A stretch of 64,000 nucleotides of DNA from Kordiimonas sp. (GTDB lineage Bacteria; Pseudomonadota; Alphaproteobacteria; Sphingomonadales; Emcibacteraceae), in assembly GCA_002700365.1 (NCBI GenBank), contig PADB01000010.1, positions 420,504-484,503 on the forward strand. The letters are read 5' to 3'. Below the pieces are notes generated by a model that worked only from the letters and a program-made list of their open reading frames with translations, searched no databases and was not told the DNA's origin. Of the stretch, positions 2,207 to 7,615 are shown in pieces. A program made the translations under genes and the position numbers. How positions within the stretch are numbered: the stretch's first letter is position 1; each line of letters starts with the position of its first letter.

Positions 2207-2233
2207 ATGTATAAGAAAGCCAACGATACGTGA
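2207..2233 (+). other. Candidate 8-codon upstream ORF coupled to the membrane protein gene
   Basis: ATG at 2207 starts a short frame reading MYKKANDT that ends in TGA at 2231-2233. The TGA overlaps the GTG start of the next gene at 2230. A GAGG motif lies about 5 bases upstream of this ATG, whereas the downstream gene has no clear ribosome binding site of its own. The arrangement would allow translational coupling. It may also be chance. Confidence 0.25.
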
Positions 2234-3138
2234 CGATGCCCCCCTATTACATCCCCCCTTTCAAAGCCATTAGAGAAGCGTATTACTGTTTATTGCACTG
2301 CTGGCAATATCATTTACTGATCGCCTATCTCGTGACGCTGCCCTATACAATCGCAGGATTGTTAGGGGGGCTGGACCCGCTGATGATGCCGACAACATCA
2401 CTCGATGCGGTCCCCGCAGGGTATTATTCTGCCCTCGCCCTGATGTTTCTGACGGTCGCCATCTGGCCCATCCCCTGTGTGGTCCTTTGGCAAAGGCTCT
2501 ATCTATTAGGCCCTTCACAAATGCTACGTAAACGTTTTTGGCCGCTGCTTACCCGCACGGTTCAATTTGTCATTGTCTTCCTGATTTCCTTTGGCTGCAT
2601 TATGGCCTTAGGGGGGATTGTACTGTTTCTGATGATGACGCTCATCACACCGCTTCTGGACCGCGTCCCTATCATTGAAAACGTGGAAGTTTTTACAATG
2701 GGCATTGCCGCAGCCCTGTTAATGCTCGTTATGATGGTCGCCAGCGTGCGGCTGGGCCTGCTGTTTGTCTCGCAAGCCATCGGCCGCCAGATGAGCTTCC
2801 GGCAAGCCTGGCAAGTGACCCAAGGTAATACTGTGCGCATGATAAGTGTATCTATCACGGGCTTTGTACCAATGCTGGCGTTATTTCTACTTGTTGTCTA
2901 TGGGCTGCGTCAGGTTATATGTCCGGCTTTCATGACACTGACCTTATCAGAAAATACGTCTCTTAATTTCCTGTTGCTTTTTGCCTTCTCACCTGTGCTG
3001 ACCCTGCCCTTGGCATATCTTGCTGCCCAAATGTCTGTTTTTTACCGTTGTTTAGGGGTGGGGAGCGCATGGATGGACAGTTTCCTGAAGGCGGGAACGA
3101 AATCCAGCCATCAGCATACATCTTCGCCACAGCCATAG
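2230..3138 (+). CDS. Uncharacterised multi-pass membrane protein
   Basis: About 302 aa from a GTG at 2230 (300 aa from ATG 2236). Hydrophobic segments are visible near residues 27-48, 65-90, 115-140, 155-180, 205-230 and 240-275, so roughly six membrane spans. The last ~20 residues are polar. The arrangement resembles the poorly characterised integral membrane families with long paired helices that are common in Rhodospirillales, but I recognise no named family and assign no function. An in-frame TAA at 2212-2214 rules out a longer N-terminus. The start overlaps the stop of an 8-codon upstream ORF. Confidence 0.6.
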   Translation: MTMPPYYIPPFKAIREAYYCLLHCWQYHLLIAYLVTLPYTIAGLLGGLDPLMMPTTSLDAVPAGYYSALALMFLTVAIWPIPCVVLWQRLYLLGPSQMLRKRFWPLLTRTVQFVIVFLISFGCIMALGGIVLFLMMTLITPLLDRVPIIENVEVFTMGIAAALLMLVMMVASVRLGLLFVSQAIGRQMSFRQAWQVTQGNTVRMISVSITGFVPMLALFLLVVYGLRQVICPAFMTLTLSENTSLNFLLLFAFSPVLTLPLAYLAAQMSVFYRCLGVGSAWMDSFLKAGTKSSHQHTSSPQP

Positions 3139-4360: not shown

Positions 4361-4963
4361 TTATGCAGTCTTGCGACGGCGATGTAATCCGAATAATAGG
4401 CCACCAGCCAGCAATGCCAAACCGGCAGGCTCAGACACCTGGTTTTGTGGCAAACGCAGACCAAAAACCTGTACTTCTGCCAAATGCAGATAGTCTGTCA
4501 CGTTCAATTGAACACGAACCACCTGACCGTTGGTGTTGATATTGCTGAAGGTTGTAGAAGGGTTTGGACCGCTTTGGTTGCTCCATGTACCTTTCACCGC
4601 GCCATCAACCAATACATTGAAGTCACGTGTCCGGCTAAGGCAGCAATCTGTACGGTTCCAAATTGTAATGCTGTCAATGTGCATTACAGATCCAAGATCC
4701 ACTTCCCACCAAGCACCTCTGTCATTATTCGTATGCGTAATTGTGTTCAGGTTGCTATTCACCCAATTCCCAAACGTATTACCATCAATGGCTTTCTGGG
4801 CACCATTACGGGCAACATTTCCCTGATAATCCGAAGACTGGCTTGCAGTCCCGCCTAATGCCAGGTTCGTCATTGGAATAGCTTGCGCAGACGTTGCAGA
4901 CAACCCGACAACCACAGCCGCCGCTGACACGAATTTGATAAAATTTTGCATTTTGAAACGCAT
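4361..4963 (-). CDS. Exported discoidin/F5-8C-like protein with PEP-CTERM-like C-terminus
   Basis: 200 aa from ATG 4963, chosen because AGGGG lies 7 bp upstream; an ATG at 5002 is in frame but has no site. Order: a signal peptide (MRFKMQNFIKF then a hydrophobic run ending SAQA, cleavage near residue 28); a galactose-binding-like beta-sandwich with NLALGGTASQSSDY, AIDGN, WWEVDLGSVMHIDSITIWNR and VQVFGL; then VSEPAGLALLAGGLLFGLH ending in RRRK. The tail has the EP motif, the hydrophobic helix and the Arg cluster of PEP-CTERM sorting signals, with S instead of P before EP. Such proteins are processed by exosortase and often go to the exopolysaccharide or cell surface. Ligand unknown; probably carbohydrate. 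Confidence 0.8.
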   Translation of the reverse strand: MRFKMQNFIKFVSAAAVVVGLSATSAQAIPMTNLALGGTASQSSDYQGNVARNGAQKAIDGNTFGNWVNSNLNTITHTNNDRGAWWEVDLGSVMHIDSITIWNRTDCCLSRTRDFNVLVDGAVKGTWSNQSGPNPSTTFSNINTNGQVVRVQLNVTDYLHLAEVQVFGLRLPQNQVSEPAGLALLAGGLLFGLHRRRKTA

Positions 4964-5127
4964 TTTATATCCCCTAAAAACTATACCCGGCATAATAAGC
5001 AATTATCGGGCCAAAAATAATTATTATTATAAATCAAGGCATTAAAGTTCTCGCGACTCATCCCCCATTGCATTATGTAAAGAATCCTGACACAAATTCG
5101 CCACATGCGTTATGGCAACGCCACATT

Positions 5128-5180: not shown

Positions 5181-6125
5181 ATGCGCATTCTTGTTCTTGG
5201 CGCTGGTGCCATTGGTGGACATTTTGGTGGCCTACTCGCTCATGCTGGCGCCGATGTCACGTTCCTTGTCCGCCCCAAACGCCAGAAAATCCTAAAAAAC
5301 GGCATTACTTTACGCACCCCGGAACAGACCTATACCGTCCCGATTAAGACCATCCTTAAAGATCAGCTGGATGGTCATTACGACCTGATTATCATTGCCT
5401 GTAAGGCGTATGACCTTCCCAATGCCATGGATGCGGTACGCCCCGCCGTTGGCCCCGATACATATATATTGCCGCTGTTAAACGGCCTGAAACAGCTGGA
5501 CATTCTCGATGAAGAGTTCGGCCCCGGGAAAATTATTGGCGGATTTGTCCTTAACATTTCTACCATGCTGCCCGACGGCAGTATTGAGAGCAAAAGCCCC
5601 AAGGGCGGCAAACTCATTTTCGGCCCACGCTTCAAAAGCCAGCAGGATATATGCCACACACTGGAAAACCTATTTAACAAAGCTGCATTTGTCACTAACC
5701 GCAGCGACAACATCCAGGCCCCCATGTGGGACAAATTTGTCCGTATCACGCTGCTGGGCGCCGTAAATTGCCTGTTACGGGGGACTGTCGGGGATGTAAT
5801 GGCCACCCGTGATGGCCAATGGATTACGCTGTCCCTGATGAAGGAATGCCTGGATGTCGCCGAAGCCGCAGGCTATCCCTTAGGCGAAGACAGCATCAAC
5901 AGCATCGCCACGAATATGACACGTGAAGGATCCGATTATAATTCTTCTATGTTCCGCGATCTGGAACATGGCTACCAGATCGAAGGCGATCATCTGCTGG
6001 GCGATATGCTACGCCGCGCGGAAGACCTGAAATGCGAAGCGCCATTACTGGCTATTGCCTATTGTCACCTGCAAACCTATATGGCGCGCCGTGAACGTGA
6101 ACGCCGCCCCGAAGAACTGGGCTAA
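5181..6125 (+). CDS. panE: 2-dehydropantoate 2-reductase family protein
   Basis: 314 aa. N-terminal NADP-binding motif GAGAIGGHFGG at residues 7-17, then the central IIACKAYDLPNAM segment (the catalytic-domain Lys of ApbA/PanE) and a C-terminal helical domain with MWDKFVRITLLGAVN and SSMFRDLEHGYQIE(G)D, the hinge and Asp/Glu residues typical of the family. The expected reaction is NADPH-dependent reduction of ketopantoate to pantoate in pantothenate synthesis. Many genomes carry several paralogues acting on other 2-keto acids, so the exact substrate is an inference. It stands alone between two transcription ends. Confidence 0.82.
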   Translation: MRILVLGAGAIGGHFGGLLAHAGADVTFLVRPKRQKILKNGITLRTPEQTYTVPIKTILKDQLDGHYDLIIIACKAYDLPNAMDAVRPAVGPDTYILPLLNGLKQLDILDEEFGPGKIIGGFVLNISTMLPDGSIESKSPKGGKLIFGPRFKSQQDICHTLENLFNKAAFVTNRSDNIQAPMWDKFVRITLLGAVNCLLRGTVGDVMATRDGQWITLSLMKECLDVAEAAGYPLGEDSINSIATNMTREGSDYNSSMFRDLEHGYQIEGDHLLGDMLRRAEDLKCEAPLLAIAYCHLQTYMARRERERRPEELG

Positions 6126-6152
6126 AACGCCATTAAAAATCAACCAACAAAA

Positions 6153-6180
6153 AAGGCCCTACCATTTCCGGTGGGGCCTT
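6153..6180 (-). terminator. Intrinsic terminator, copy 1 of a duplicated hairpin
   Basis: An 11-bp stem with one G-U pair closes a 6-base loop. On the minus strand it is followed by a T-rich run (TTTTTTGTTGG side), so it ends the lipoprotein cassette; it can also slow read-through from panE. The loop and one arm are almost identical to the hairpin at 7137-7163 that ends the atp operon. Confidence 0.8.
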
Positions 6181-6184
6181 ATAG

Positions 6185-6802
6185 TTAAAAACCGTTCATC
6201 TTCATAACTTGCTCTACTGTATAGGTGTTACCTGCAGGTGCTGGTTTTATCACCTCAACTTCCACGTTCCCGTCTTCAACGATACGAACCCTAATATGTT
6301 CACCAACGAACATTACATCTGTGACTTTATCTTTCTCAATCACAATAGTTTGCTCACGGAAAGTCACTTTCCCATCATCAGTTTTAAGATAAGCAACAAG
6401 CGTCTTATTACCGCTAAACCAGCGCCCCCGAAATTCGAACCACATTTCTCCAACGTCTGCCTGTTCAGCTTCCGGTACCACTGTATAAGGAATTGACTGC
6501 TTAAGTGGCACAAGATCGCCCATAAGCGTCCCTATCAACTGCTTATTCTCAAGCGACGCCACAGCTTCATGCATTGTGTCGAACATACCATCATTCTGCC
6601 AATCTGCCAGACAACGTAGTGATTCCGGTGAAGCCAATGCACCAAGCATACTCATTGACTTTCCAAAACCACAATACATCGACTTTTCACCTGTAGAACT
6701 ACCCCAAACCGCCCTATCTGGCTCTACCTGAAAAAGGCGTGTCCCTTTGTGAAAAATGACAGCTTCTTTCTTGTCATCCACAACGGAAGTTTCAAGGCCC
6801 AC
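6185..6802 (-). CDS. Hypothetical protein, probably the main body of a frame-disrupted lipoprotein
   Basis: 205 aa from a GTG at 6802, but the same frame stays open further upstream and reads LKRKIRYAREV directly after the T run at 6831-6835. Joined across that run to the 60-codon lipoprotein frame, it would give one protein of about 275 aa. I do not recognise the family. The visible protein is hydrophilic, with beta-rich segments such as VTFREQTIVIEKDKVTDVMFV and a C-terminal VEVEVIKPAPAG stretch. The GTG start has no ribosome binding site, which also favours the joined reading. Function unknown. Confidence 0.6.
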   Translation of the reverse strand: MGLETSVVDDKKEAVIFHKGTRLFQVEPDRAVWGSSTGEKSMYCGFGKSMSMLGALASPESLRCLADWQNDGMFDTMHEAVASLENKQLIGTLMGDLVPLKQSIPYTVVPEAEQADVGEMWFEFRGRWFSGNKTLVAYLKTDDGKVTFREQTIVIEKDKVTDVMFVGEHIRVRIVEDGNVEVEVIKPAPAGNTYTVEQVMKMNGF

Positions 6803-6828
6803 CTCACGCGCATAACGAATTTTACGTT

Positions 6829-7011
6829 TTAAAAAGGCGTCGCTGACCCAACGATGATTTTTTCTTCTACCTGTGGCCTTTCTGAAACCGCAAATACAGT
6901 GCCCGCAGACTGCAAATCAGGCGTCAGCCCCATCATTGATGATGGTCCCTTCATACAGGATACTGATGCTAGGCCAGCGATCACCACAAAAAAGATTCTG
7001 GAAAATTTCAC
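6829..7011 (-). CDS. Lipoprotein N-terminal fragment, likely same gene as the next frame
   Basis: 60 aa from a GTG at 7011 with AGGAG 7 bp upstream. It has a signal peptide of the lipoprotein type: MKFSRIFFVVIAGLASVSC, with the lipobox ending at Cys19. It stops at TAA just after CCT-TTT. Adding one T to the T5 run (6831-6835) fuses it in frame to the downstream 205-codon gene. Either an indel in the run, a sequence error, or -1 slippage on TTTTTAAAA could explain the layout. Confidence 0.65.
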   Translation of the reverse strand: MKFSRIFFVVIAGLASVSCMKGPSSMMGLTPDLQSAGTVFAVSERPQVEEKIIVGSATPF

Positions 7012-7136
7012 GACTTACTCCTGATCGTTAATTATTCTTCTACAGGAGCCACAAATAATCATGTATCTCCCCCCAATGGAAAAAACAATAAATAGAAGTA
7101 CATAAGTCAGCAATAGAAAAGTTAGTAAAGCAAAAA

Positions 7137-7166
7137 GGCCCTACCATTTCCGGCAGGGCCTTTTTT
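7137..7166 (-). terminator. Intrinsic terminator of the atp operon, copy 2 of the duplicated hairpin
   Basis: A GGCCCT(A/G)CC-type stem with a short loop, flanked by A and T runs. It lies 36 bp after the atpC stop and ends the ATP synthase operon. The sequence shared with 6153-6180 covers one arm, the loop and the start of the other arm. Confidence 0.85.
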
Positions 7167-7201
7167 TACATGTCTTTGTCGACTTGAGATAAGTCAGAGC
7201 C

Positions 7202-7615
7202 TTAAGCGGCGGCATCATCCAATGCTTGCAGCACTTCCTGTGCACGGTCGCGGGCATCTTCCGCCTTGGCGCGCGTTGCCGCATCCTTGGCATCCTGAAT
7301 GTCCTCATTGCAATTTTGCAATTCTTGCTCAATCGCGGCCCGATCAATTTCCGAAAGGGCCATCGCCTCTTCCGCCAACACGGTCAGCGTTGTACCCGTG
7401 ATTTCAGCGAAACCACCCCGCACAAACAACTTCACCAAATCGGCACCGTCATTATGCACTTCAACGATTCCTGGACGAATAGTCGTCACCAATGGCGCAT
7501 GGCCCGGTAGTACGCCGATATCCCCTTCGACACCGGGAACCACAACCATTTCCGCCTCCGCCGACATCAATAGCCGTTCAGGAGAAACCAGTTCAAAGTT
7601 CACTATATCCGCCAT
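7202..7615 (-). CDS. atpC: ATP synthase F1 subunit epsilon
   Basis: 137 aa. The N-terminal beta-sandwich is intact: NFELVSPERLLMSAEAEMVVVPGVEGDIGVLPGHAPLVT is the standard epsilon opening. The C-terminal two-helix part is Ala/Glu/Asp-rich. Epsilon sits on the central stalk and can inhibit ATP hydrolysis by raising its C-terminal helices. It is the last gene of the atpHAGDC operon, 29 bp after atpD. Confidence 0.95.
   Translation of the reverse strand: MADIVNFELVSPERLLMSAEAEMVVVPGVEGDIGVLPGHAPLVTTIRPGIVEVHNDGADLVKLFVRGGFAEITGTTLTVLAEEAMALSEIDRAAIEQELQNCNEDIQDAKDAATRAKAEDARDRAQEVLQALDDAAA

Follow-up and report, generated by a model that had tools for sequence, protein, structure and literature searches.

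The window is the whole stretch of DNA that was analysed, 64,000 nt from Kordiimonas sp. (GCA_002700365.1), which covers positions 420,504-484,503 of the forward strand of contig PADB01000010.1. The whole assembly (own genome, G000) comprises 2,399,875 bases in 12 contigs. It is compared here with a set of 59 relatives, of which none (0/59) belong to the genus of the window. The following features are located where the atp operon ends and beyond:

7202-7615, minus strand: atpC, encoding ATP synthase epsilon (Pfam PF02823)
7132-7167, minus strand: T2, the bidirectional hairpin that ends the atp operon, with a 28-nt core at 7135-7162 (direct repeat, folding, position after atpC)
7012-7131, minus strand: AT-rich stretch that separates T2 from the start codon of the lipoprotein gene and forms its leader (33.6% GC over 7012-7130)
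6185-7011, minus strand: lipoprotein gene (ORFs; similarity to the L037 protein from the frame break onward)
6145-6180, minus strand: T1, the second copy of the hairpin, beyond the lipoprotein gene, with a 28-nt core at 6153-6180 (direct repeat, folding, flank)
5181-6125, plus strand: panE-like gene for a ketopantoate reductase, in convergent orientation to the atp operon (Pfam ApbA and ApbA_C; TIGR00745 above cutoff)
2230-3138, plus strand: mem, a membrane-protein-like gene that forms the recurring far border of a variable interval (no Pfam match; tblastn)

T1 and T2 are 28 nt each and share the same layout, with 11-nt arms and a 6-nt loop. An earlier note on this DNA described the two hairpins as equally oriented and almost identical, and 29 of 31 nt are indeed the same. 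Its coordinates are exact for T1 (6153-6180) and a few bases off for T2, which it placed at 7137-7166, the hairpin proper being at 7135-7162. The 31-nt core of the repeat (6150-6180 and 7132-7162) consists of 22 identical nt, a TG in T1 versus a CA in T2, and 7 more identical nt; a longer direct repeat (6135-6180 and 7117-7162) retains 80% identity over 46 nt. The TG/CA differences are located in the second arm of the hairpin and result in a G-U pair, which the folds place on the plus strand in T1 and on the minus strand in T2. With this pair on opposite strands, either hairpin is paired throughout its stem on one strand but has a single mismatch on the other; a single change in each, starting from a perfect stem, may account for this. 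T2 has T-runs on both sides that, with the two stem T's included, comprise 5 residues (minus strand) and 7 residues (plus strand). In T1, the minus strand has a run of 6 T's followed by GTTG, and the plus strand, on the side of panE, has no more than two T's.

The hairpin folds in all four strand readings (-21.5, -19.6, -21.2, and -26.1 kcal/mol), and the numbers of shuffled sequences that fold at least as well are, in turn, 0, 3, 0, and 0 of 200. The likeness of the direct repeats that flank the insert is above chance in the repeat search, against the expectation, and against shuffles: the window contains 2 matches to the hairpin at up to 3 mismatches versus 0.05 expected, and a comparison of T2 with the ~1.4 kb beyond it finds 27/30 identical positions, whereas the best of 1000 dinucleotide shuffles reaches 20/30. 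A scan with promoter and terminator consensus patterns does not list T1 and gives a different stem at T2, with values at the shuffle level. Searches for Rfam-type RNA families at the hairpins find nothing above the gathering score and two sub-threshold matches.

In the 2.4-Mb own genome, T1 and T2 are the only copies of the hairpin at up to 2 mismatches. Allowing 3 mismatches adds three further matches, for a total of 5, the same number as in the reversed-pattern control. The 59 relatives contain 8 matches, each with exactly 2 mismatches, spread across 7 genomes (two of them in G035), and no exact copy is found in viral contigs. A common dispersed terminator that resembles REP or uptake sequences is ruled out by the low copy number in the own genome, two in 2.4 Mb when up to 2 mismatches are allowed. 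A common terminator used at many loci is also what the earlier note had named as an argument against insertion.

As had been proposed from the sequence, the hairpins enclose a single frame-disrupted lipoprotein, that is, one minus-strand gene that is read in two frames. The signal peptide and the lipobox (named by eye) are found in the frame 7011-6829, and the body of the protein is in another frame, open from ~6913 to 6185; the one-base frame break, near 6825-6837, coincides with a T5/A4 run. It is at this break that the similarity to L037 starts; the reading frames of the homologs, L037 included, comprise 278 aa. The gene is possibly broken, with the frame break representing either a real lesion or a homopolymer sequencing error. 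Its GC content is 0.45, compared to a mean of 0.495, which corresponds to the 8th percentile of an 863-kb sample of the own genome. The pieces encoded in the window have no Pfam match, and the main piece has no NCBIfam match; one of the two homologs shows a GEVED match only, below the cutoff (E value of 0.078).

The lipoprotein gene has a single occurrence in the own genome. Its homologs are encoded in 2/59 relatives (G023 and G006), in both cases at other loci, where no twin hairpins surround them. Across the order, the gene is found in 3/295 other genomes at E values up to 0.01, namely, in these two and in a third as a weak partial match; plasmids and phages yield no match at the same threshold. 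The regions past atpC, up to 8 kb each, were collected from 31 relatives (28 of the 31 members of the family contained in the set, and 3 from another family of the same order), and the lipoprotein gene is found in none of them (0/31) at E values up to 1e-5, although three of these regions span less than 1.2 kb. Conservation of the lipoprotein at this site, which the earlier note had regarded as evidence against insertion, is thus not observed.

The neighborhood of the atp operon differs from one relative to another. A homolog of mem faces the atp operon in 24 of the 31 regions, as detected by tblastn, and is missing in the other 7, owing to an early contig end or the lack of a match. In 8 of the 24, all from genus g5, the distance from atpC to the start of the mem match is 18-107 nt; in the remaining 16, atpC and mem are separated by 0.7-3.8 kb with differing ORFs. 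The interval past the atp operon varies across the family, from 18 nt to about 4 kb in length and, from genus to genus, in its ORFs. Among the 31 relatives, only G001 shares with the window the presence of panE at this locus. In G001, however, a PfkB kinase gene and a beta-lactamase-like gene separate panE from atpC, so that the earlier neighbor of atpC in the lineage of the window is not proven. The window's HxlR-like and GFA-like genes beside mem (names assigned by eye) have look-alikes in G002 and G003, judging by sequence start and place. Between panE and the GFA-like gene, a minus-strand ORF (4361-5002) appears by eye to encode a discoidin-like, secreted protein with a PEP-CTERM-type tail.

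The position and the flanks of the two hairpins indicate which one is native. T2 begins 36 nt after the atpC stop codon. The distance from that codon to the start of a strong hairpin is 17-33 nt in 25 of the 31 relatives; the remaining 6 have a weak hairpin call or none, in one case owing to a contig end. By its position, T2 is the native terminator of the atp operon. The flanks tell about the other side. Of the 26 relatives whose hairpin measures 26 nt or more, 15 have a T-run followed by RTTG after the atp terminator, a count that takes in the near copies of G012 and G018 (see below) and one weak call. In the sample of the own genome, 218 strong terminator-like sites were detected, with T1 and T2 left in, and 7 of them have the same flank. 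It is present at T1 but absent at T2, which suggests that the sequence beyond T1, on the panE side, originally bordered the atp terminator on its far side and that the lipoprotein gene is an insert between two copies, which probably arrived with the duplication of the terminator; the flank in question is one short motif in one copy. The A-run before the first arm, which serves as the plus-strand T tail, is found in T2 and missing at the other edge of T1, the edge where the duplication seems to begin. Judging from the sequence, panE would have retained a hairpin (T1) but with a poor T tail.

These features are best accounted for by assuming that the lipoprotein gene is a lineage-specific insert past the atp operon and that its arrival duplicated ~31-36 nt, including the whole bidirectional terminator, an explanation that is reasonably likely to be correct. 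The earlier note had suggested insertion at, or recombination between, terminator sequences. That suggestion is borne out insofar as the hairpin is not a terminator common to many loci, the lipoprotein is not conserved, T1 carries the flank, and G012 and G018 offer a parallel; the exact empty site, with one hairpin and panE directly beside atpC, is not seen among the relatives' loci examined. After such a duplication, T2 would still terminate the atp operon, and T1 would terminate the lipoprotein gene and face panE. We infer that insertion and duplication were one event, which might have originated from replication template switching at the hairpin: the fork would stall at the hairpin, copy other DNA, and restart upstream of the hairpin, which would then be copied twice. 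Such an arrangement would be tolerated, since neither the operon nor the newcomer is left without a terminator. Insertions mediated by template switching or microhomology can leave inserts with a direct duplication at the point of the stall, and the window resembles them in its anatomy alone.

A parallel case is found in the same family. For the window and for 30 relatives with a called hairpin (5/30 of these calls are weak), the sequence downstream of the atp operon was searched for a second copy of the atp terminator of the same genome. No clear second copy of the own terminator is seen in 28/30 relatives, subject to the same weak calls. The other two are G018, with 24/30 identical positions, and G012, with 22/30, values that are reached by 0/1000 shuffles. 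When the hairpins are swapped between genomes, 0/30 reach the value of the window (27/30), with a maximum of 21, and 0/30 reach the value of G018. For G012, 2/30 match or pass it, those of G014 and G005; both match the second copy itself, as expected from homology. G004 has a 19/30 match, inverted and in the mem gene region, which is also reached by 0/30 swapped hairpins and is taken as chance.

The repeat in G018 comprises 39 nt with 79% identity. In both G012 and G018, the terminator copies are separated by a MITE-like insert of ~90 nt with CGTCATTCC-type ends, located about 60-190 nt after atpC (L154 in G012 and L156 in G018). The two inserts are 94% alike over 67 nt, and since the same insert is found in both genomes, they are counted as one event. 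The distal terminator copies have the GTTGTAAAAA flank of the single-hairpin relatives G014 and G002, whereas the atpC-near copies do not. The MITE-like element has further copies in G018 and G024, and these have no long flanking repeats (a weak 18-nt pair with 78% identity spans the G024 copy). This observation rejects the element alone as the cause of the duplication and implies that insertion and duplication could be separate events. A search of 80 further named atp loci, of which 36 are usable (42 were dropped for lack of a good terminator and 2 as too short), finds only L047 and L048 at 22/30 or above; both are G012 and G018 again. Overall, the interpretation of the earlier note is partly supported, and the lipoprotein locus can be regarded as a modest but clean example of a gene gained together with a duplicated terminator, to which the family offers one parallel.

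The final layout would be identical if the terminator had been duplicated in tandem first and the insert had come later between the copies. Such a two-step origin, consistent with the lack of long flanking repeats at the other copies of the G018 element, implies an intermediate with two terminators and no insert; however, a clear second copy without an insert is seen in 0/30 relatives, the best candidate being the inverted 19/30 match in G004, and this sequence of events appears unlikely.

Site-specific integration is a still less likely explanation. According to it, the hairpins would be attL- and attR-like sites and the lipoprotein gene a cassette, moved by a recombinase of the tyrosine, integron, or Xer type. 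No recombinase gene is found between the hairpins, and the genome contains no integron integrase over the family cutoff (the best score for TIGR02249 is 76 versus 265 bits, and matches of this kind occur in all 14 control genomes, too). It does contain stretches of similarity to tyrosine recombinases, as well as two Y1 transposase matches over the cutoff, located elsewhere. The direct repeats of ~31 nt, the succession of an ORF and a hairpin, and the 11-6-11 arrangement of arm, loop, and arm would all suit a recombination site, whereas the hairpins of G012 and G018 share neither the sequence nor the 11-6-11 layout with T1 and T2. Integron cassettes with attC hairpins likewise consist of one ORF followed by a hairpin and are added behind an existing hairpin. 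They differ from the arrangement in the window in that the latter comes with no integrase over the cutoff and only two sites in the genome. The core motif of attC is GTTRRRY, and reading the edges of both hairpins by eye reveals no full match to it at either one.

A lipoprotein gene that resided at this locus with its own terminator, one hairpin being later converted by the other or the two having converged, is very improbable: the terminators of the relatives do have a common plan, with CCC and GGG arms, but the 27/30 identity extends to the loop and exceeds the maxima of 20 in 1000 shuffles and 21 among 30 relatives' hairpins, T1 bears the flank of an atp terminator, and the lipoprotein gene is absent at the relatives' loci examined.

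An insertion with duplication of the terminator, the preferred explanation, resembles the target-site duplications of transposons and insertion sequences in that the insert is flanked by direct repeats of the target. Target duplications of insertion sequences usually range from a few to about 14 nt; the repeat in the window is longer, ~31 nt, and consists of a whole terminator. The insert contains neither a transposase nor terminal inverted repeats: the lipoprotein gene is its sole gene, and no inverted pair besides the hairpins is present at its ends.

Twin terminators are rare in the genomes scanned. In 863 kb of the own genome, with 1266 terminator-like sites under a loose definition and local pairs defined as those within 6 kb, 2 of the 11,163 local pairs, both of them direct, reach 24/30 or better, as do 3 non-local ones. 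One of the two local pairs is T1/T2, and the other belongs to tandem sRNA-like units at C4:201.4-201.9 kb. Another 200 kb of own-genome sequence (1.06 Mb in total) contains no local pair at 24/30 or better, and neither do 300 kb each of G002 and G004, where the best pair is an inverted one in G004, at 23. Within this small genome sample, two independent cases at one locus are notable.

A broader generalization would be that the end of the atp operon is a recurrent site of gene arrival in this family, where the arrival of DNA goes along with a duplication of the bidirectional terminator in its entirety, insulating the host operon and the newcomer at once, and that this happened twice independently at one locus. 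We consider this doubtful. A limited literature search, which is no proof of absence, did not reveal any account of inserted genes flanked by duplicated terminators. Twin terminators might provide a readable signature of gene gain beside an essential operon, and such gains would be tolerated in that no transcription unit loses its stop signal. Scans for twin terminators could find and place insertions in any genome, provided that the pattern recurs in other places.

The sRNA-like units on C4 (201421-201894; L199 1421-1894) are two in number and arranged in tandem, with terminators that are 29/30 alike and 349 nt apart. They resemble T1/T2 in having near-identical terminators close together but differ in that more of the transcription unit is repeated there, whereas at T1/T2 it is the hairpin only. 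Their Rfam matches, to mmgR and SorX, are below the gathering score. Another near-copy of the terminator of these units, with 27/30 identical positions, is found at C4:486679.
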